Source of the DNA: Paraburkholderia megapolitana
GTDB lineage: Bacteria > Pseudomonadota > Gammaproteobacteria > Burkholderiales > Burkholderiaceae
Direction of reading: 5' to 3'
Assembly (NCBI RefSeq): GCF_007556815.1
Contig: NZ_CP041745.1
Coordinates: 4,421,012 to 4,485,011 of the forward strand
Length of the DNA stretch: 64,000 bases
The translations under genes and the position numbers were made by a program. Below are positions 1-64,000 of this stretch, in pieces; the first letter of the stretch is position 1, and every line of letters starts with the position of its first letter. The notes below the pieces were generated by a model. That model searched no databases. It was not told the DNA's origin and was given only the letters and a program-made list of their open reading frames with translations.

Positions 1-1576
1 CGCAGATGCCGTCGTAGCTCACACCCGGACGACGCAGCAGGTCGGCCAGACTGTATTCGTGATCGATTGCCTTGCCGAGCAACGCGGTCGCTTCCTCGGT
101 AGGCAACGTCTTCGGATTGACCCACGTTGCACGCAGCCGCTCTGTTTCACGTGAAACAGCGTCACGCTTGCGGCTGAATGCGTCCCAACGGGCGTCGTCG
201 ACCACACCAAGTTCGCGGCCCGCTTCCGTCAAGCGCATGTCAGCGTTGTCTTCGCGCAGGCTCAAGCGATACTCCGCCCGGCTCGTGAACATCCGATACG
301 GCTCAGACACGCCGCGCGTGACCAGATCGTCGACGAGCACACCGAGATACGCCTGATCGCGGCGCGGGCACCACGCATCCTTGCCTTGCACCTGCAAACC
401 TGCGTTGATACCAGCCAGCAAACCTTGAGCGGCGGCTTCCTCGTAACCGGTCGTACCGTTGATCTGACCCGCGAAGAACAGGCCGTTGATCACCTTGGTC
501 TCCAGCGATGCCTTCAATCCACGCGGATCGAAGTAGTCGTACTCGATCGCATAGCCCGGTCGCAGGATGTGCGCGTGCTCAAGTCCGTTCATCGAGCGGA
601 CAAGCTCGAGCTGGATATCGAAAGGCAAGCTCGTCGAAATACCGTTCGGGTAGAACTCGTTGGTGGTCAGTCCTTCCGGCTCGAGGAAGATCTGGTGCGA
701 CTCTTTCGATGCAAAGCGGTGGATCTTGTCCTCGATCGACGGGCAGTACCGCGGCCCCACTCCTTCGATCACGCCTGTATACATAGGCGACCGGTCGAGA
801 CCACTGCGGATGATGTCGTGTGTCCGCGCGTTGGTATGCGTCACCCAGCACGGCACCTGCCGCGGATGTTGAGCCGCGTTGCCGAGAAAGGAAAACACTG
901 GCACCGGATCGAGATCGCCGGGTTGTTCTTCGAGCTTCGAGAAGTCGATCGTGCGACCGTCGATACGCGGCGGAGTACCGGTTTTCAGCCGTCCCTGCGG
1001 CAGCTTCAATTCTTTGAGCCGCGCGGACAAAGAAACCGCCGCCGGATCACCCGCCCGACCGCCGGTGTAGTTGTTCAAGCCGACATGAATCTTTCCATCG
1101 AGAAAAGTCCCCGCCGTGAGCACGACTGCACGTGACCGGAAGCGAACTCCCACCTGGGTCACCGCGCCGACTACCCGGTCGCCTTCAACCATCAAATCCT
1201 CGACGGCCTGCTGGAACAGCCAGAGATTCGGCTGATTCTCGAGACGATGCCGGATCGCCTGCTTATAAAGCAGACGGTCCGCCTGCGCCCGCGTTGCACG
1301 GACGGCCGGCCCTTTCGATGAATTGAGGATGCGAAACTGGATGCCACCCTCGTCCGTTGCCGCCGCCATCGCGCCGCCCAACGCATCGACTTCCTTGACC
1401 AGATGACCTTTACCGATCCCGCCAATCGACGGGTTGCAGCTCATCTGACCGAGCGTTTCGATGTTGTGCGTGAGCAGGAGCGTCGTGTTGCCCATGCGCG
1501 CAGAGGCCAAAGCGGCCTCCGTGCCAGCATGGCCACCGCCGACGACGATTACGTCAAATTCTGTGGGATAAAGCAT
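1..1576 (-). CDS. mnmG: tRNA U34 carboxymethylaminomethyl synthesis protein MnmG (GidA), 3' end cut off by window
   Basis: FAD-dependent subunit that works with MnmE to put the carboxymethylaminomethyl group on wobble uridine 34 of several tRNAs. About 525 of the usual ~650 residues are present and the C-terminus lies left of the window. The N-terminus ([18 protein letters not shown]) has the Rossmann FAD motif GGGHAG at residues 13-18, followed by the family motifs [14 protein letters not shown] and [10 protein letters not shown]. The ATG at 1576 gives the canonical start. The partner gene mnmE lies about 57 kb away at 58654-60054. An exact parS sequence lies inside the coding region at 143-158. 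In this group rsmG and parAB usually follow mnmG, but that is outside the window. Confidence 0.97.
143..158. promoter_or_regulatory. parS: parS centromere site, inside mnmG
   Basis: The sequence is the exact 16-bp palindrome TGTTTCACGTGAAACA, the consensus ParB binding site of bacterial chromosomes. It lies in the mnmG coding sequence, where parAB and parS normally cluster near the replication origin. Confidence 0.93.
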
Positions 1577-1683: not shown

Positions 1684-1718
1684 AAAAAAGCGCCGTGTTT
1701 CACGTGAAACACGGCGCC
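1684..1718 (-). terminator. Intrinsic terminator of liv operon 1 whose stem is a parS site
   Basis: A perfect 28-nt palindrome (14 bp per arm, GCGCCGTGTTTCAC and its complement) is followed on the minus strand by TTTTTT. It lies about 35 bp after the livF stop codon, so it should end the liv operon 1 transcript before mnmG. The central 16 bp at 1696-1711 are TGTTTCACGTGAAACA, an exact parS. Confidence 0.85.
1696..1711. promoter_or_regulatory. parS: parS centromere site between livF and mnmG
   Basis: Exact copy of TGTTTCACGTGAAACA in the mnmG-livF intergenic gap. It is the core of the longer terminator palindrome described at 1684-1718. It is the second of only two exact parS sites I found in the window. 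Confidence 0.93.
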
Positions 1719-24575: not shown

Positions 24576-25220
24576 TCAGACGTGCTGGACAAACACCTTC
24601 CAGGTCTTTTTCTGTGTCGCGACATCAGCCGTCTCGTGAACCGAGCAGTCGAGACGCAAGTCGGTATCCGCCAGCGATAGATCGAGCAACGCACAATGAT
24701 GCGGCGTCTTCTTCGGATTCTTGCTCGGCTCGAAATACGTGCAGGTCACACACATGCGGTGTAGCGGAATGTGGCCCTGTGCTTCGAGCTGGCGAATCGT
24801 CTTCAGCAGCGTGCGATAGAAAGCCGATTGCTCGTCGGCGCGCAACGTGCCGACCGCTTTCGACAGGAAGTCCGGCCATTGCGCCGCGCGTTTCGCCGCC
24901 GTACGTCCACGTGTGGTCAGACGCACCGCCAGTGCACGGCCGTCGTCGAGTGCGCGACGTTTCTCGACGAGCCCCTTGCCTTCCAGCGTGCTTACCGCGT
25001 CGCTCGTCGTGGCAGCGGTCAGTGCGGTTTCACGGGCGATCTCGCCCAGTCGCATCGGCCCCTTGCGCTGCATCAGCAGCACGAGGATTTCTCCCTGGGT
25101 CGGTGTGAGACCCGCACCTTCCGCCCATTCCCATGCCTGGCTCCGCATGGCCGTGCTCAGTCGTAACAGGCTGTGGGTGACACGTCCCATCGCCTGCTCT
25201 CCGTAAACGCCTTCGCTCAT
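24576..25220 (-). CDS. MarR-family regulator with C-terminal cysteine cluster
   Basis: 214-aa winged-helix regulator. The MarR core covers ~residues 10-150 (GAGLTPTQGEILVLLMQRKG; MRLGEIARETALTAATTSDAV). The last ~60 residues hold MCVTCTYFEPSKNP, HHCALLDLSLAD and LDCSVHETA, with four cysteines and two histidines spaced like a metal or redox site. The start MSEGVYGEQ at 25220 is chosen; a Met 12 codons upstream is possible. The amidotransferase gene follows at 23836-24549. The tail is unusual for MarR proteins and suggests that oxidation or metal binding tunes DNA binding. Confidence 0.9.
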   Translation of the reverse strand: MSEGVYGEQAMGRVTHSLLRLSTAMRSQAWEWAEGAGLTPTQGEILVLLMQRKGPMRLGEIARETALTAATTSDAVSTLEGKGLVEKRRALDDGRALAVRLTTRGRTAAKRAAQWPDFLSKAVGTLRADEQSAFYRTLLKTIRQLEAQGHIPLHRMCVTCTYFEPSKNPKKTPHHCALLDLSLADTDLRLDCSVHETADVATQKKTWKVFVQHV

Positions 25221-25485
25221 GATCTTTGTTTGGTTGTTGACAGCTTTTCGCTGCATGGTCGGTCGCCATGCGTCAAAACGCCGGCAGCCTGGTGGGGGCA
25301 CTTCCGCCTGAATCCCGGGCGGGTCGACTTCTTACATCTACTAATTTATAAAGTATCTCAAAAAAGTACCGTACTGTTTTCGCGCGCTTCTTTCATTTCA
25401 TTACTCGTGGGACACATCCACTCGAACGACGACGCGGAGTACGGAAACAACATTCTATTCGAGAGCGGCGAATCGTACAGCTAAG

Positions 25486-25735
25486 TTATCCGACAGAATC
25501 TGTGGATAACTACGGTACAAGCGCTTAACAACCGGTGCACGGTTTCTTGACAACTTGCAGGGCGATCGGCCGGCATCTCGGGTTATCCGCGTTTCGCGTG
25601 CTCTGCACACAGACGAATCGCGCGGTTGTGCTGCGTGCAGCGCGATGACTCTGCAGGGAATTATCGGGTTGTCCACAGAAGCCGTCGACCCTTGTTAACT
25701 ACTACTACAGACGTATACATCAGTTCTATAAAAAC
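25486..25735 (+). other. DnaA-box-containing element A (inverted copy at 28751-29012)
   Basis: Contains a perfect DnaA box TTATCCACA on the minus strand (25509-25501), TTGTCCACA at 25669-25677, and two partial boxes TTATCC at 25486 and 25583. Then come GTTAAC at 25694-25699 and GTATAC at 25713-25718, leading into an A/T-rich run. The same elements in the same order occur in inverted orientation at 28751-29012. The arrangement of boxes and a melting-prone region resembles a replication origin, but no experiment is implied. Confidence 0.6.
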
Positions 25736-25756
25736 CTTGGGAAGGTCCTGTCGGAA

Positions 25757-25782
25757 ATAAAAAAACCCGCACAGAGCGGGTT
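25757..25782 (-). terminator. Intrinsic terminator of ybdK
   Basis: Stem AACCCGC-acaga-GCGGGTT; on the minus strand it is followed by a run of seven T residues. It lies 50 bp after the ybdK stop. Confidence 0.88.
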
Positions 25783-25831
25783 CATGAGGGTTCAAGACCT
25801 GGGGTTGACACGATTTCCGCGTACCCGTTTG

Positions 25832-26947
25832 CTACGCCCGCCATTGCAGGCACTGCTGCCGCACTGCTTCGTGCAACGATTTTTCTTCGGTAACGACGCC
25901 GCGCAGCCAGGTCGCATCGTTGATCTGGCTACGTGCAATCGCGCCGACTTCGTCGAGCGCCCGGCCGGAACCGAGTGCTTCGGCATGCGGTGCGATGCGC
26001 TCGAGCGTCTCGATGATGTCTTCGGAAATCGTCTTGCGTTCGCCGGTCTGCGGATCGATGCAGGTGCCCGCCAGACCGAAGCGGCAGGCCTCGAAACGGT
26101 TGAATGTGTAGACGAGGTAGTCGTCCTCTTTCGGCATCAGCGGTTTATCGAGCAACAGGTGGCGTGCCAGCGTCTGGATGTAGCAGGCGATCGCCGCAGC
26201 GCGGTCGACGGAAAACGGCGTGTCCATCACGCGGACTTCGATCGTGCCGAAGCCCGGTTTGGGACGGATGTCCCAGTAGAAATCTTTCATGCTGTTGACG
26301 ACGCCCGTGTTCACCATCTTCGAGAAGTACTCCTCGAAGCTGTCCCACGTGAGTACGAACGGTGCGCGGCCCGACAACGGAAACGCGAACACCGAGTTCA
26401 GGCGTGCCGAATGAAAGCCGGTGTCGACACCCTGTACGAACGGCGACGATGCCGACAGCGCAATGAAATGTGGAATAAAGCGCGACATCGAATGCAATAG
26501 ATACAGCGCGCTATCCGAATCCGGACAGCCGATATGCACGTGCTGGCCGAACACCGTGAACTGTTTCGCGAGGTAGCCGTAAAGCTCGGACAGGTACTGG
26601 AAACGCGGCGTATCGACGATCTGCCGTTCGCTCCATTGCTGGAATGCGTGCGTACCGCCACCGCATAAACCGACGTTCAGCCGGTCGGCGGCTGCAACGA
26701 GCGTGTCGCGGATCGTGCGCAGATCGGTGACGGCCTGCTCGTGCGAAGTACAGATGCCGGTGGACAGCTCGATCATGCTCTCGGTGATTTCCGGCGTGAT
26801 GTTGCCCGGAATTTTTTCATCCTTGATGAGCCGCAGCAGATCGGTGCCGGCTTTGGTCAGATCGTAATCGTGTGTGTTGACGATCTGCATTTCGAGTTCG
26901 ATACCGAATGTGAACGGTTTCGAATCGACGAAGGGTTCGAGTGACAT
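25832..26947 (-). CDS. ybdK: YbdK-family carboxylate-amine ligase (glutamate-cysteine ligase type 2)
   Basis: 371-aa enzyme of the ATP-grasp-like GCS2 family; E. coli YbdK has weak gamma-glutamylcysteine synthetase activity. Recognisable segments are [47 protein letters not shown] and FGQHVHIGC. The start [10 protein letters not shown] at 26947 has AGGGAACGCC upstream; the longer frame to 27052 overlaps the antiporter and is rejected. It lies 76 bp downstream of the antiporter stop, likely in one transcript. The true glutathione gene gshA is separate at 51563-53212. Confidence 0.93.
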
Positions 26948-27023
26948 GGCGTTCCCTGGGTCAAATCGGCCGGATGTTTCGAAGACATCCGGCCATGGCA
27001 AAGCGGTATATGAAGGTGTTCGT

Positions 27024-28226
27024 CTACTCGCGGCGCTCGCCAACGAGCGCAAGACTGCGATAGACCAGCCACGGGCTGACGATCTGCAACACGACGATCG
27101 AGCACATCACCACCGCGCGCAGCATCGGATCGAAATTCGGGTACAGCGTGTAGGTGTCGTCGACGAGCAGATACGCAAGCGCCGACATCGGCGATAACGA
27201 CAAACCGAGCGCGACGCCCTGCTTCCAGTTCAGCCCGCTCGGTTTCGCGAAGGCTAGCACGCCGAGCAGTTTGGCGACGAGCCGCGCGATGATCAATCCC
27301 ACTGCGGCGACGCCACCGAGCGCGATATCTTTCCACTCGAACGTGGTGAGCGTCAGCACGAACAGGATCACGGTCAGCAGCCATCCCGCTGTGCCGAAAT
27401 GCTGCGGCCAGAGTTGCGGACGCGCTTCGAGATTCTTCACGATGATGCCGGCGGCGAGCAGACTCAGGATCGTCGACAGCTTGAACAGATGCGCGACTGC
27501 AATGGCCAGCAGCACGAGACCGAACAATGCGACGAACGAATGCTCGTCCTGCATGTTCATGCGTCGATAGAAGAAATTACAGGCGCGCGCGAGCCCATAT
27601 GCCAGGATCAACGAACCGATCAGCAGATACAGCGGCTGCAGGATCGTTGCGAATACGTTGCCGTACACCTCCTGATGCAGCCAGCTCGATGCGAGCTTTT
27701 CGATCACGACCGCATACATGCTGTTCAGCGCAGTGAGCGCCATCAGACGTTGCGTGACCTGACCTTCTGCGCGCAACTCGGTCTTCAGCTGGATCACCAT
27801 CGCGGGCGACGTTGCCATGGCGATCGATGCGAGCACCATCGCGACCATCGTCGGCACTTTGAGGAACAGCAACACGACGAGTACGAAGATGAAGGTCAGC
27901 GTCGACTCGGCGAAGCTCGAGAGAATCAGCCAGTAATTGCGGCGCATCCAGCGTAGATCGAGCCGGCTGCCAAGTTCGAACAGCAGCAGCCCGAGCGCGA
28001 CGTCGAGCAGCGGTCGCGCAGCCGATGCCGCACTCGCATCGATCACACCCGAGCCCGCCGCCCCGGCGATCAGACCGATCACCGCATAGCCGGAGATACG
28101 TGGCAGATGCCACGCGCGATAACAGAGTTCGCCGCACAGCCCTGCTGCAAGCAACGCCAGACCGGCCCAGAAAATTGCGTCGGGCGTGAGTGGCCACGCG
28201 GGAAAGAATGAAAACGCCGACTTCAT
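27024..28226 (-). CDS. Monovalent cation:proton antiporter (CPA2 type)
   Basis: 400-aa inner-membrane antiporter with about twelve hydrophobic helices, typical of the NhaP/KefB-like CPA2 membrane domain without a C-terminal TrkA-N domain. Conserved segments include [35 protein letters not shown] and [13 protein letters not shown]. Exchange of Na+ or K+ for H+ is the expected activity. It is co-oriented with ybdK. Both genes sit between the two inverted DnaA-box elements. Confidence 0.92.
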
Positions 28227-29049
28227 CGTGGTGGCTTCTCCTTTGGCAGCGACAGCTGTACCCGCCTCGTGCGGGGAGCGTTGTGGAGGACTGAGCGTAC
28301 ACCGCGTTCATGGCGAAATACGCTGCGGCCGATCCACATCGCGAGCTGTCAACGATCGGATGAAAACAGAACGAACCGGTACTGCATCACTGCCTGTCGC
28401 AACGGATGTCGCGCAGCGGGAGCAGTCGGCCCGTATGAAAAGAACGCCGTCGACTTTCGAATCAGATTCTGATTGACCGGCAACCGTTCCGTTGATGCGT
28501 CCGTCGCTCGAAGCAACGGCAACGCGGGAAGAACGGCGATTGTGCCACAGCTTTTTCGTACTCGACTGAAAGTGTCTCGAACATGCTTGCAAAACGGTAA
28601 AACCAACCGCGATCGTGCGGGATTGAAGGAAAAAGCGACCGGGTATGGAACGTGGCCTCGTGCAGGTTTGCTGCGCTGTTAGAGATAGATAGATCGTACC
28701 TGCGGTGCCTTTTTCGGCTGTGATCGTCGGACAGCCCGTGCGGCCCTTTGGTTTAAATGGTTTACCTGTATGTATACGTAGTAGCAGTTAACAAAGGGGT
28801 CGCATTTCTGTGGACAACCCCGGTTTACCGAAATGAATCATCTGCTTGGCGAACGCATAACCGGATGCAAAGCGTATGCGACAGCGGCTGGCTTCTTTGC
28901 ATAACTTTGCCGCGGCGCGCGCCGAAACGAAGTTACCCCGTTTACGTCCACATCGAGTCCACATGAGTTGCGCGCGCATTCCCGATAGTTATCCACAGCC
29001 TGGCGTGGACAAGTCTGGTGCGCGTCGAAGGAGATGAAGGGGGATTGGT
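28227..29049. other. Gene-free stretch of ~820 bp with DnaA-box element B
   Basis: No credible gene on either strand. The left part (28227-28750) carries the antiporter promoter region; the right part is element B. Local composition is AT-richer than the flanking genes. Confidence 0.7.
28751..29012 (-). other. DnaA-box-containing element B (inverted copy of element A)
   Basis: Read on the minus strand it has TTGTCCACG (29012-29004), a perfect DnaA box on the plus strand (TTATCCACA 28989-28997), TTGTCCACA (28817-28809), GTTAAC (28792-28787) and GTATAC (28777-28772). TTGTCCACA and GTTAAC are 16 bp apart, exactly as in element A. The words CTGTGGATAACTA and CTACTAC are also shared. Two further GTCCACA motifs lie at 28946 and 28957. 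Confidence 0.6.
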
Positions 29050-31017
29050 TCAGCGGATCGTGCTTTGTCGCAGCGCGCGTAGCAGGAAGCGCGCTGGGTC
29101 GATGGCTTCGGCGAGGTCGCGCTCGATCGGCCACGGCTCGCCTTCGATCTGCGAGGCGATCAGTTCGGCACCGAGCGCCGCCCACACCAGTCCGCGCGAG
29201 CCATAAGCGAACGCGCCATATAGACCGTCCGCGCGAGGTAGATCCAGCGGCCATGCGCCGCGCAGACGTTCGGCGTCGAGTGTAGCGGCGGTTTCGTCGG
29301 CGAGCTGACCGATCATCGGCAGGCGGTCGAGTGCGACGCAGCGAAACGCGACGCGTCCGGCGAAGGTCGACGGGTTCTGTGTTCGCAATGCGGGATCCAG
29401 CGACGGCATCATTTCCGCGAGGCGTTCGAGATTCTCGAGGTGATCAGCGGAGCGCACGGATGCGTCCATGTCGTCGACGTGGTAGGTCGCGCCGCTCAGC
29501 GTAGTGCCGTCGACGAGCGGTACAGCGTAGCCCGCGCCGATGACCGGCACGTGCGGCGCCACGATGCTGCCGCGCGGCAGTAGCGTGAGCTGGCCGCGTA
29601 CACGCTGTGTCGCGGCATGCTGGAGGCCAGCGATCCGCGCGGCCTCATGTGCGTTCGCGACAATCACCACGGGCGCCGAAATGATTGCGCGACCCGATGT
29701 ATCGATCACGGTCCATTGATCGCCGCTGCGTTCGATCCGTGCAACTTCAACACCGAAACGCCGTTCGAGCTGCGTGCCGGCCGCGGCGCATTGCGCTGCA
29801 CATAGCGCAGCGGGATCGAGCCAGCCGCCGTGCGGATAAAACCATCCACCGTGTGCGAGCGGCACCTTCGCGATACGTTGTGCTTCGTCGCGCGACAGCG
29901 GTGCGACAAAATCACGCGGCCACGCGAACGCGGTGAACGCGTCGGTCATGGCTTGCAGTTCGGCGTCGTCAGCGGCGAGTTGCAGCAGGCCCTGGGTGCT
30001 GCGCGCGAAATCATGACCTGCGTGTTCGAGTGCAATCCAGCGCTGTAATGCGTACGCAAAACCGGCGCGCGTAATGCGCGACGTGCCGCTATCATCGCGC
30101 GAAAGCTGCGGATGAAAAACGCCCGCAGGATTGCCCGATGTTTCGCGTGCAATGTCGGCATGTCGCTCGAGCGACGTGATTTGCCAGCCGCGCGCAGCGA
30201 GTCGTTCGATTGCTGCACATCCCGCGAGCCCTGTACCGATCACGACGGCATGTCGTGCGTTGACGGCGAGTGGTACCGGCGGCTCGTGTCGGCGTACGCG
30301 CCAACGCGGCGCGAAACGACCGACCAGCATCGCGCGTTTCCAGCCGAAGCCATCCACCTTGCGATACTCGAAGCCGGTTTGCGTGAGCGCGCGTTTCACA
30401 TCGCCGGCGCTTGTATATGTGGCGAAGGTTGCGTCGTCGCCGGCGAGGCGCGCGAGCATCTTGAAGATTGGCGGCGTCCACAATTCGGGATTTTTCGCCG
30501 GCGAGAAACCGTCGAGATAGAACGCATCGGCACGCAACCACAGCGACGGCAGTGTCTCGAGCGCATCGCCGAAGGCGAGCGTCAGCGTGACACGACCGCC
30601 CTCGAATTCGAGTCGATGCACACCGGGCACGAGTGTCGGCCACGCCTCGGCGAGTGTCTGTGCCAGCTCTACGATCGATGTTTCCGCAACCGTCGCCGCG
30701 TACGCCGCGCGCAAATCGGCCTCAGTAAACGGGTACTTTTCCGTCGAAACGAAATGCAACCGCTCGCAGCGCGCAGGGTCCGCGCGCCACGCGGCCCACG
30801 TCGCGAGGAAGTTGATTCCCATGCCGAAGCCGGTTTCCAGCACGGTGAAAATCCGCCGACCTTGCCATCGTTCCGGCAGACCATTGCCGTGCAAGAACAC
30901 GTATTCGGCCTGAGCCAAACCGCCGACCGCGCTGTGATAAATGTCGTCGTGACGCGGCGAAAACGGTGTGCCGTTATCGCGAAATGCGAGCGTCGCAGGG
31001 ATGAGCGGGTGGGTCAT
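29050..31017 (-). CDS. mnmC: Bifunctional tRNA mnm5s2U biosynthesis enzyme MnmC
   Basis: 655-aa cytoplasmic enzyme that completes the wobble-uridine modification begun by MnmE-MnmG. The N-terminal methyltransferase domain (~1-240) has FSPRHDDIYHS, ETGFGMGINFLATW and YLDGFSPAKNPELW. The C-terminal FAD oxidase domain starts at ~260 with VIGTGLAGCAAIERLAARGW and includes NPAGVFHPQLSRDDS. The start MTHPLIPATLAF at 31017 fits the family; the longer frame to 31125 does not. Both activities look intact. Confidence 0.96.
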   Translation of the reverse strand: MTHPLIPATLAFRDNGTPFSPRHDDIYHSAVGGLAQAEYVFLHGNGLPERWQGRRIFTVLETGFGMGINFLATWAAWRADPARCERLHFVSTEKYPFTEADLRAAYAATVAETSIVELAQTLAEAWPTLVPGVHRLEFEGGRVTLTLAFGDALETLPSLWLRADAFYLDGFSPAKNPELWTPPIFKMLARLAGDDATFATYTSAGDVKRALTQTGFEYRKVDGFGWKRAMLVGRFAPRWRVRRHEPPVPLAVNARHAVVIGTGLAGCAAIERLAARGWQITSLERHADIARETSGNPAGVFHPQLSRDDSGTSRITRAGFAYALQRWIALEHAGHDFARSTQGLLQLAADDAELQAMTDAFTAFAWPRDFVAPLSRDEAQRIAKVPLAHGGWFYPHGGWLDPAALCAAQCAAAGTQLERRFGVEVARIERSGDQWTVIDTSGRAIISAPVVIVANAHEAARIAGLQHAATQRVRGQLTLLPRGSIVAPHVPVIGAGYAVPLVDGTTLSGATYHVDDMDASVRSADHLENLERLAEMMPSLDPALRTQNPSTFAGRVAFRCVALDRLPMIGQLADETAATLDAERLRGAWPLDLPRADGLYGAFAYGSRGLVWAALGAELIASQIEGEPWPIERDLAEAIDPARFLLRALRQSTIR

Positions 31018-31445
31018 GCGTGGTGAAAAAACACTCGAACAGACATCGGAAGACTGCCGGGAAAGGCTCGCCCAGTGCGGGTTTCGCGGACTGCGGGCGC
31101 GATTCTGGGCGCGCCGCGTTGGCAAAAACCAACGCTCGACGGCGACAAAAACTGGTGTCGCGCGGTAAGCAGGGTTCCGTCGAGGTCAAAAACGGCACTT
31201 TCCATAGGAGAAACGCGTAAAGAACGCTGTAATTCTTCGAAACCCTTATCCTGCATGGGTTTGCGCTGCGCTATCATAGCAAGCGCCGCGGAGGGAAGCG
31301 GCAGCACGGCCGTCATGCAGTACCTTGCGCGACGCATTTGTCCGGACCGCTTCCGGAGCCGTCGCTGCTCAATGGCGCGGCTCGCGCACGTATAATCGGC
31401 GCGTTCGCGCTGTTCGTGTCAACCTAAACTCAGAAAGGAACCTTA
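31018..31445. other. Intergenic region upstream of the HU gene
   Basis: About 430 bp with no gene I can support. It carries a perfect TATAAT at 31391-31396, about 50 bp before the HU start, and a weak -35 region near 31367-31373. Confidence 0.6.
31391..31396 (+). promoter_or_regulatory. -10 box of the HU promoter
   Basis: Consensus TATAAT, 50 bp upstream of the HU ATG. The -35 hexamer is poorly conserved (GCTCAA/CTCAAT at 17-18 bp spacing). AAGGAACC serves as the ribosome site before the gene. Confidence 0.6.
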
Positions 31446-63614: not shown

Positions 63615-64000
63615 GTTGCTCTCACTTGTTGAGAAATGACCGCGCGAGCATCGCAGGGAACGCAATGAACGGTGGTGCTGGAAATTGGTTTACGCCGAAC
63701 CCGCTATTTAAGCCGGTTTTCTCTTGGTCGTCAATAGCTTAGAGGCTTGTTCCGACACCCCCGTACGTCCCGATCGACTGGTCCGGCCCTGTGGATAACT
63801 CCCCTTACGGCGTCGTTTTGGCGTTAGAATCTCGCCTTAATCCCAAGAATCCTGCACGACGCCCCGCTGCGCCTGCTTGCCGCAAACCCTTGTGGTGCAA
63901 GCGCCTGGGGCAGTTCCGTCTGTGCTGCTCCGGGCCTCGTCGCGGGTTTTGCGACCAGGAAGCGCCAGCGGACCGCCGTGCACATAACGACAGCAACTCG
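63615..64000. other. rpmH-dnaA intergenic region (right edge)
   Basis: About 385 bp up to the window edge with no gene seen; dnaA is expected to start beyond it. It should hold the rpmH promoter and part of the dnaA promoter. One perfect DnaA box (TGTGGATAA) lies at 63790-63798. I saw no cluster of boxes here. Confidence 0.7.
63790..63798 (-). promoter_or_regulatory. DnaA box upstream of dnaA
   Basis: Perfect TTATCCACA on the minus strand (TGTGGATAA on the plus strand). A single box near dnaA is often involved in autoregulation. Confidence 0.65.

Follow-up and report, generated by a model that had tools for sequence, protein, structure and literature searches.

A probable replication origin built from two inverted oriC-like units in Paraburkholderia megapolitana

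On the primary chromosome of Paraburkholderia megapolitana, two complete units resembling a bacterial origin of chromosomal replication (oriC) lie in inverted orientation about 3.1 kb apart, with their unwinding sides converging across a ybdK gene and a Na+/H+ antiporter gene. We consider it very probable that this locus is the replication origin of the chromosome (probability about 0.85). The two units, here called A and B, are located in the final 64 kb of contig NZ_CP041745.1 (4,485,011 bases), and this whole stretch of 64,000 nucleotides is referred to below as the window. A first-pass annotation of the window had suggested that the two elements form a paired origin-like unit or, alternatively, an element titrating DnaA or binding an initiator. 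The position of the GC-skew minimum and the conservation across genera support the former proposal.

Two inverted units near the GC-skew minimum

Read in the same orientation, A and B have in common GGGTTGTCCACAGAA, a variable stretch, TTGTTAACT, a CTACTAC run and GTATACAT (Table 1), and every word listed for them in the first-pass annotation proved to be exact and in its place. The top-strand trios are CTA CTA CTA in A and CTG CTA CTA in B. Local alignment of A with the reverse complement of B gives a score of 56, while the best of 1000 dinucleotide shuffles reaches 30 and the best-scoring stretch of the window outside the two units reaches 34. The window holds 4 matches to the DnaA-box pattern TTWTNCACA where 1.27 would be expected; 4 matches are also reached in 4 of 100 shuffles. 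DnaA boxes alone are weak evidence, whereas the ordered set of words is strong evidence.

Both units are intergenic, A between the MarR-type gene and ybdK and B between the antiporter gene and mnmC. A cluster of DnaA boxes next to an AT-rich stretch, as expected of an oriC, is clear at A, where the unwinding side (25694-25775) has 39% GC against 62% in the window, and modest at B (51%, 28702-28792). Upstream of A, a stretch (window 25440-25500; in relatives the consensus reads CGACATTCTATGCGAGAGCGGC-AATCGTACAGCTAAG) shows about the same degree of conservation as the unit itself; it could be the MarR promoter or a part of the origin. A site for integration host factor (IHF) in the conserved TTCTTGATAA word was rejected on comparison with the consensus by eye.

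The cumulative GC skew, read contiguously over the last 224 kb and the first 20 kb of the contig (244 kb), has its minimum beside A and not beside dnaA: it falls 293 bp inward from A's box and 38 kb from dnaA, so that the units sit at a GC-skew switch, as is usual for an oriC. The rest of the contig was sampled as 20 stretches of 20 kb. All 10 samples between base 1 and 2.18 Mb have a positive skew and all 7 between 2.4 and 3.86 Mb a negative one; at 4.0, 4.1 and 4.2 Mb the skew is about zero, negative and positive, respectively. In two other genomes, the minimum of a 400-kb stretch is also beside A, at 387 bp in G249 and, in a genome of another genus (G083), at 328 bp from the start of the match. 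Local minima were also located in 13 genomes over stretches of 36-64 kb: in 9 of them the distance to the inner box of A is at most 430 bp, and in 12 the minimum falls inside the pair or no more than 254 bp outside it; in G308 it lies 765 bp inside A, and in G332 and G046 nearer to B. Among 11-kb pieces holding 62 intact pairs, 26 minima are 2.8-3.0 kb from the B box (that is, just inside A), 18 are about 0.7 kb inside B and 18 elsewhere. For 16 loci with a decayed A, the minimum is at the left edge of the piece in 8, near A in 4 and elsewhere in 4.

The pair had been placed between parS sites on the left and dnaA on the right, and this arrangement was confirmed: two perfect matches to the parS consensus lie within 26 kb of the pair, and dnaA (contig bases 13-1584) follows just beyond the right end of the window, about 38 kb from the pair provided that the contig is circular. 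Many oriCs adjoin dnaA, but this is a common habit and no strict rule. Upstream of dnaA there is one perfect DnaA box (63790), and the model search described below found no origin unit upstream of dnaA in this genome.

Table 1. Features of the candidate origin and its surroundings (positions in the window)
Feature	Position	Strand	Remarks
Origin unit A	25486..25735	+	boxes left, unwinding side right, toward B; model E 8.1e-18 (own training row)
A outer DnaA box TTATCCACA	25501..25509	-	inverted, 168 bp from A inner box
A inner DnaA box TTGTCCACA	25669..25677	+	
A TTGTTAACT word	25692..25700	+	holds GTTAAC 25694-25699, exactly 16 bp past inner box
A DnaA-trio-like run CTACTACTAC and GTATAC	25699..25718	+	run 25699-25708, then GTATAC 25713-25718; AT-rich unwinding side
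Origin unit B	28751..29012	-	unwinding side toward A; model E 3.5e-15 (own training row)
B TTGTTAACT, trio-like run, GTATAC	28772..28794	-	GTTAAC 28787-28792 (16 bp from box), CTACTAC 28778-28784, GTATAC 28772-28777
B inner DnaA box TTGTCCACA	28809..28817	-	
B outer DnaA box TTATCCACA	28989..28997	+	180 bp from B inner box
B weak outer box TTGTCCACG	29004..29012	-	two mismatches
Cumulative GC-skew minimum	25962	.	last 224 kb + first 20 kb of contig, read contiguously (244 kb)
MarR-family regulator gene	24576..25301	-	left neighbour of A
ybdK (carboxylate-amine ligase family)	25832..27052	-	within pair; 75-93% identity in 10-kb pieces of relatives
Na+/H+ exchanger-family antiporter gene	27024..28226	-	within pair; PF00999; closest named antiporter (99%) from P. 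acidicola
mnmC	29050..31125	-	right neighbour of B
parS site	143..158	+	perfect to consensus
parS site	1696..1711	+	perfect to consensus

Conservation and age of the pair

To search genomes for the unit, a sequence-only covariance model of 82 positions (R1) was built from 30 training rows, namely A, B and 28 members of the family. In this 7.6-Mb genome it matches exactly two places at E<=0.1, A and B, with no third copy at that threshold; as both are training rows, their own E-values are flattered. All 117 genomes of the genus are matched at E<=0.01, 12 of which supplied training rows. There are two matches in 19 genomes, three in 32, four in 61 and five in 5, and these counts refer to matches rather than proven units: two of the five in G323 are short pieces, and the fifth in G331 is weak and on another contig. 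In the 34 near-complete genomes of the genus, all matches below E 1e-4 are on the contig that carries dnaA. Across the family, R1 matches 31 of 39 genomes (21 genera), in 15 genera. In the order, 14 of 200 genomes are matched, 4 of them within the family and the other 10 at E-values from 4.6e-8 to 9.9e-4, and in the class a strict core pattern matches 3 of 274 genomes, our own included. At this sensitivity, the signature is thus largely bound to the family. Of 249 family genomes, 38 contain the simpler pattern TTGTCCACA-N(8-24)-GTTAAC, at 41 places in all, and the gap is exactly 16 at every one of them; a reversed-pattern control occurs at 17 places in 16 of the 249. One of the 41 places, in G057, has no trio run and is probably a chance match.

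The surroundings of the two units are conserved as well. Pieces of 10 kb from eight genera show one and the same order, MarR-[A]-YbdK-antiporter-[B]-MnmC (g1, g8, g10, g12, g14, g17, g18 and g25), which answers the first-pass suggestion to look for conservation in related genomes; in G160 and G011, B is present and A is reduced to boxes. Among the 34 near-complete genomes, 31 contain the +/- pair with a spacing of 3.1-3.5 kb (4.9 kb in G307), a count that includes G287, G296, G297 and G317, in which the weaker member of the pair has an E-value of only 3.6e-8 to 2.5e-6. G095, G120 and G281 have a single member. The pair or its remaining member is 38-68 kb from dnaA in 32 of the 34, G297 being without a value. 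In the small genome G150 (contig C1) the distance is 252 kb, suggesting a rearrangement around the origin. In G315 (C1) the contig ends fall between the units, one of which is at base 917 while its partner is about 2.3 kb before the end.

The fine structure was compared in the best 80 of 220 loci from named genomes, of Paraburkholderia, Burkholderia sp., Trinickia and Caballeronia, with intactness judged by a relaxed mismatch rule; one locus (L293) is cut short, leaving 79 for A. B is intact in 80 of 80 loci and A in 63 of 79. All 63 intact A units have the outer box at -168 to -170, and 55 have TTGTCCACA as inner box. In full pairs, which have a spacing of 2992-3398 bp, the outer box of B is at -180 or -181 in 62 of 63, and the inner box of B in the other full pairs is mostly TTATCCACA (56 of 63), unlike the TTGTCCACA found here. 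Applied to 820 kb of other DNA, the same rule gave one match (L188), which is a known extra unit of G249. The 16 non-intact A units comprise 9 that keep TTATCCACA and TTGTCCACA without GTTAAC (L250, L271, L288, L291, L305, L308, L311, L314 and L325), 5 with a worn inner box and 2 in which nothing is recognisable. An exact CTACTAC survives in three of these nine (L305, L308 and L311).

In a tree of 179 units, one side of a branch with a support of 0.935 holds 70 of the 72 A units and none of the 91 B units. The best split of the tree unites all 72 A units with 2 B units, from g17 and g18, with a score of 0.98 against at most 0.24 for shuffled labels. In these two genera the unit next to MnmC falls outside the B group. 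By sequence, the two units have thus stayed distinct in six genera. As they form separate lineages, the pair is old.

Many relatives carry additional units, whereas none was found in this genome. The tally covers 28 near-complete genomes with a full pair and a contig of known length, the host included, leaving out G287, G296, G297 and weak matches. Further units are present in 21 of the 28, 40 in total, and lie 55-377 kb from the pair. Half of them (20) are located beyond the pair as seen from dnaA, at distances of 196-370 kb; the other 20 are on the side facing dnaA, at 55-148 kb except for one at 377 kb. Thirty-five of the 40 are oriented like A. In many of the extra units a same-strand outer TTATCCACA at -184 replaces the inverted one. 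Complete extra origin-like units are seen in L160-L172, from relatives G249, G263, G308, G317, G331 and G265. Their neighbours are unrelated, for example, genes for an AraC/GyrI-type regulator and a reverse-transcriptase-domain protein, a DbpA-type helicase gene or an EamA transporter gene, and a MarR operator or promoter repeat was rejected on these grounds. The reverse-transcriptase-domain gene (PF00078) adjoins the extra unit of G263 (L163:6144-7517). Beside the corresponding extra unit of G308 (L165) is encoded a protein with a similar start.

How the pair may work

From the anatomy, conservation, synteny, position and skew of the units we infer the following scheme. Each unit is an array of DnaA boxes, with an outer TTATCCACA, weaker boxes and an inner TTGTCCACA, followed after a fixed 16 bp by GTTAAC, the run of CTA repeats and a less GC-rich stretch. 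DnaA would be loaded at the boxes and spread from there along the trio strand, opening the DNA on that side. The DnaA complexes on the two units may meet by looping, with one unit opened per round. Every named locus retains B, and A may be a second opening site or a partner for DnaA loading. If the origin is here, we tentatively favour this sharing of work as one bipartite origin, although at less than even odds. If both units fired, their inner forks would collide immediately, which makes a single bipartite origin, opened at one unit per round, the most likely arrangement.

Several observations weigh against the reading of this locus as a paired origin. Two 10-kb bins near 4.35-4.37 Mb have a positive skew, and the interval of 3.86-4.26 Mb is covered by three 20-kb samples only, one of them positive. 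In G263 the skew minimum is 2.6 kb outside A. Moreover, the skew does not tell A from B: minima cluster near both, which puts the origin in the pair without choosing the unit. With regard to the opening unit, conservation favours B and skew leans to A. A fails the intactness rule in one fifth of the named loci (16 of 79). Units close to dnaA are also known, at 4.9 kb in G296 (C1:6349375) and at about 6 kb in G297 (C1:6624) and G095 (C1:63585). Finally, the distance from the inner box to the first trio is 21 nt, more than the 16 nt allowed in a published search for the basal unwinding system (BUS) (PMC8287927), and we therefore call the units BUS-like rather than BUS.

It is quite possible, though not what we would expect first, that the origin is at this locus but only one unit, B or A, opens, and that the other, derived from a second origin copy, is a helper binding DnaA or a site for its titration or reactivation. 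Control sites of the datA/DARS type change the level of DnaA-ATP or titrate DnaA without initiating. Such a division would agree with the presence of B in every named locus, with the proximity of A to most skew minima, with the 16 A units that are no longer intact, 9 of which keep both boxes but have lost GTTAAC, and with the extra units 55-377 kb away in relatives, which would suit titration. However, titration needs boxes only, and both units are complete with their unwinding words, here and in 63 of 79 loci. Since CTACTAC is retained in 3 of the 9 decayed A units, the boxes and the unwinding part are not cleanly separated, and we lowered our estimate for this possibility slightly. The complete set of parts in both units, their long separate histories under conservation, and the decay of A beside an intact B may also point to two independent, redundant origins, either of which could start a full round. 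We regard this as unlikely, in view of the immediate meeting of the inner forks just described, and as the units are not equivalent, B being intact in 80 of 80 loci and A failing the intactness rule in 16 of 79. A more speculative idea, to which we assign a low probability, is that the central pair is a split origin whose two convergent units each open a strand of their own and load one helicase each, that primary chromosomes in a large group of Burkholderiaceae carry several complete, anciently separate units (mostly 2-5 model matches per chromosome), and that the outer ones are dormant or conditional origins. The paired inverted initiator sites of eukaryotes and archaea offer a parallel for one helicase per unit.

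An origin beside dnaA, with A and B serving as DnaA-regulated promoters of marR and of the antiporter gene, is very improbable. The perfect box at 63790, the upstream location of A relative to the MarR gene and of B relative to the antiporter gene, and the 3 of 34 relatives with a unit 5-6 kb from dnaA would fit such a model, but the skew minimum is 38 kb from dnaA, no model unit lies within 4.8 kb of dnaA in any of the 34 genomes while the pair or its remaining member is 38-68 kb off in 32, and the extra units adjoin unrelated genes. We give practically no weight to a chance or mobile repeat without a role in replication. Extra copies do occur at other loci in relatives, and the reversed short core found its 17 matches; against this stand the fixed synteny, the fixed box spacing, the clustering within 377 kb of the pair and the restriction to the dnaA contig.

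An origin hypothesis at base-pair level is now available for more than 100 genomes, through a short signature whose spacing is rigid and whose gene address is fixed. The conserved double unit set, which most of the relatives examined supplement with further copies, challenges the picture of one origin per bacterial chromosome. It may also serve as a natural system for asking whether each unit loads a helicase of its own and how surplus origin copies stay silent.

Comparison with known origins

The BUS was described in Bacillus subtilis and has been predicted in 1755 of 2070 origins, by a search for a DnaA box with at most two mismatches and at least three DnaA-trios beginning within the distance given above (PMC8287927). 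Our units share with it the succession of DnaA box, spacer and CTA repeats, which read as 3'-GAT-5' DnaA-trios on the opposite strand; order and strand are the same (PMC8287927). Their box TTGTCCACA has one mismatch, and at least three trios are present in both units. They differ from it in the spacer, which is filled by the nearly invariant TTGTTAACT, and in the presence of two whole inverted copies. To judge by its letters, TTGTTAACT is possibly a weak second box (4 mismatches).

In the bipartite oriC of B. subtilis and Helicobacter pylori, two clusters of DnaA boxes are separated by one or more genes (PMC6669920, PMC4403523), and two box subregions split by genes are likewise found here. 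In those species both halves are essential in vivo, one suffices for unwinding in vitro, and the unwinding half of B. subtilis is between dnaA and dnaN (PMC6669920). In P. megapolitana, by contrast, both halves have an unwinding module and flank ybdK and the antiporter gene, with dnaA 38 kb off. The decayed A units hint that A may not always be needed in vivo.

Among the open-licence papers that our searches listed, we saw no description of paired inverted origin units in Burkholderiales. Ralstonia pickettii belongs to the same order as P. megapolitana. Its strain 12D has two predicted oriCs, at hemE and dnaA, 291 kb apart (Gao 2015, PMC4403523). Compared by description only, the two cases are alike in having two oriCs on one chromosome, but those predicted in R. 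pickettii do not form an inverted 3-kb pair. On chromosome 1 of Cupriavidus metallidurans, the skew switch is about 90 kb from dnaA, and 213 nt there contain 3 perfect DnaA boxes (PMC2864759). Our units likewise have three boxes within a comparable length, and in two genomes of g12, a genus not established as Cupriavidus, the pair is 85 kb from dnaA; the available passages on C. metallidurans report one cluster, without pairing, inversion or conservation in the family (PMC2864759). On chromosome I of B. pseudomallei, the amplicon that DnaA bound best, located at or close to the skew switch, carries two identical boxes in opposed orientation (PMC12914326), and on chromosome c1 of Burkholderia cenocepacia clusters of DnaA boxes lie near the skew minimum, the exact origin being called uncertain (PMC4948915). 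The likeness to our locus consists of box clusters near a skew minimum; the evidence in B. pseudomallei is for binding only, and the passages available mention no duplicated unit (PMC4948915, PMC12914326). These published origin places may correspond to the units described here.

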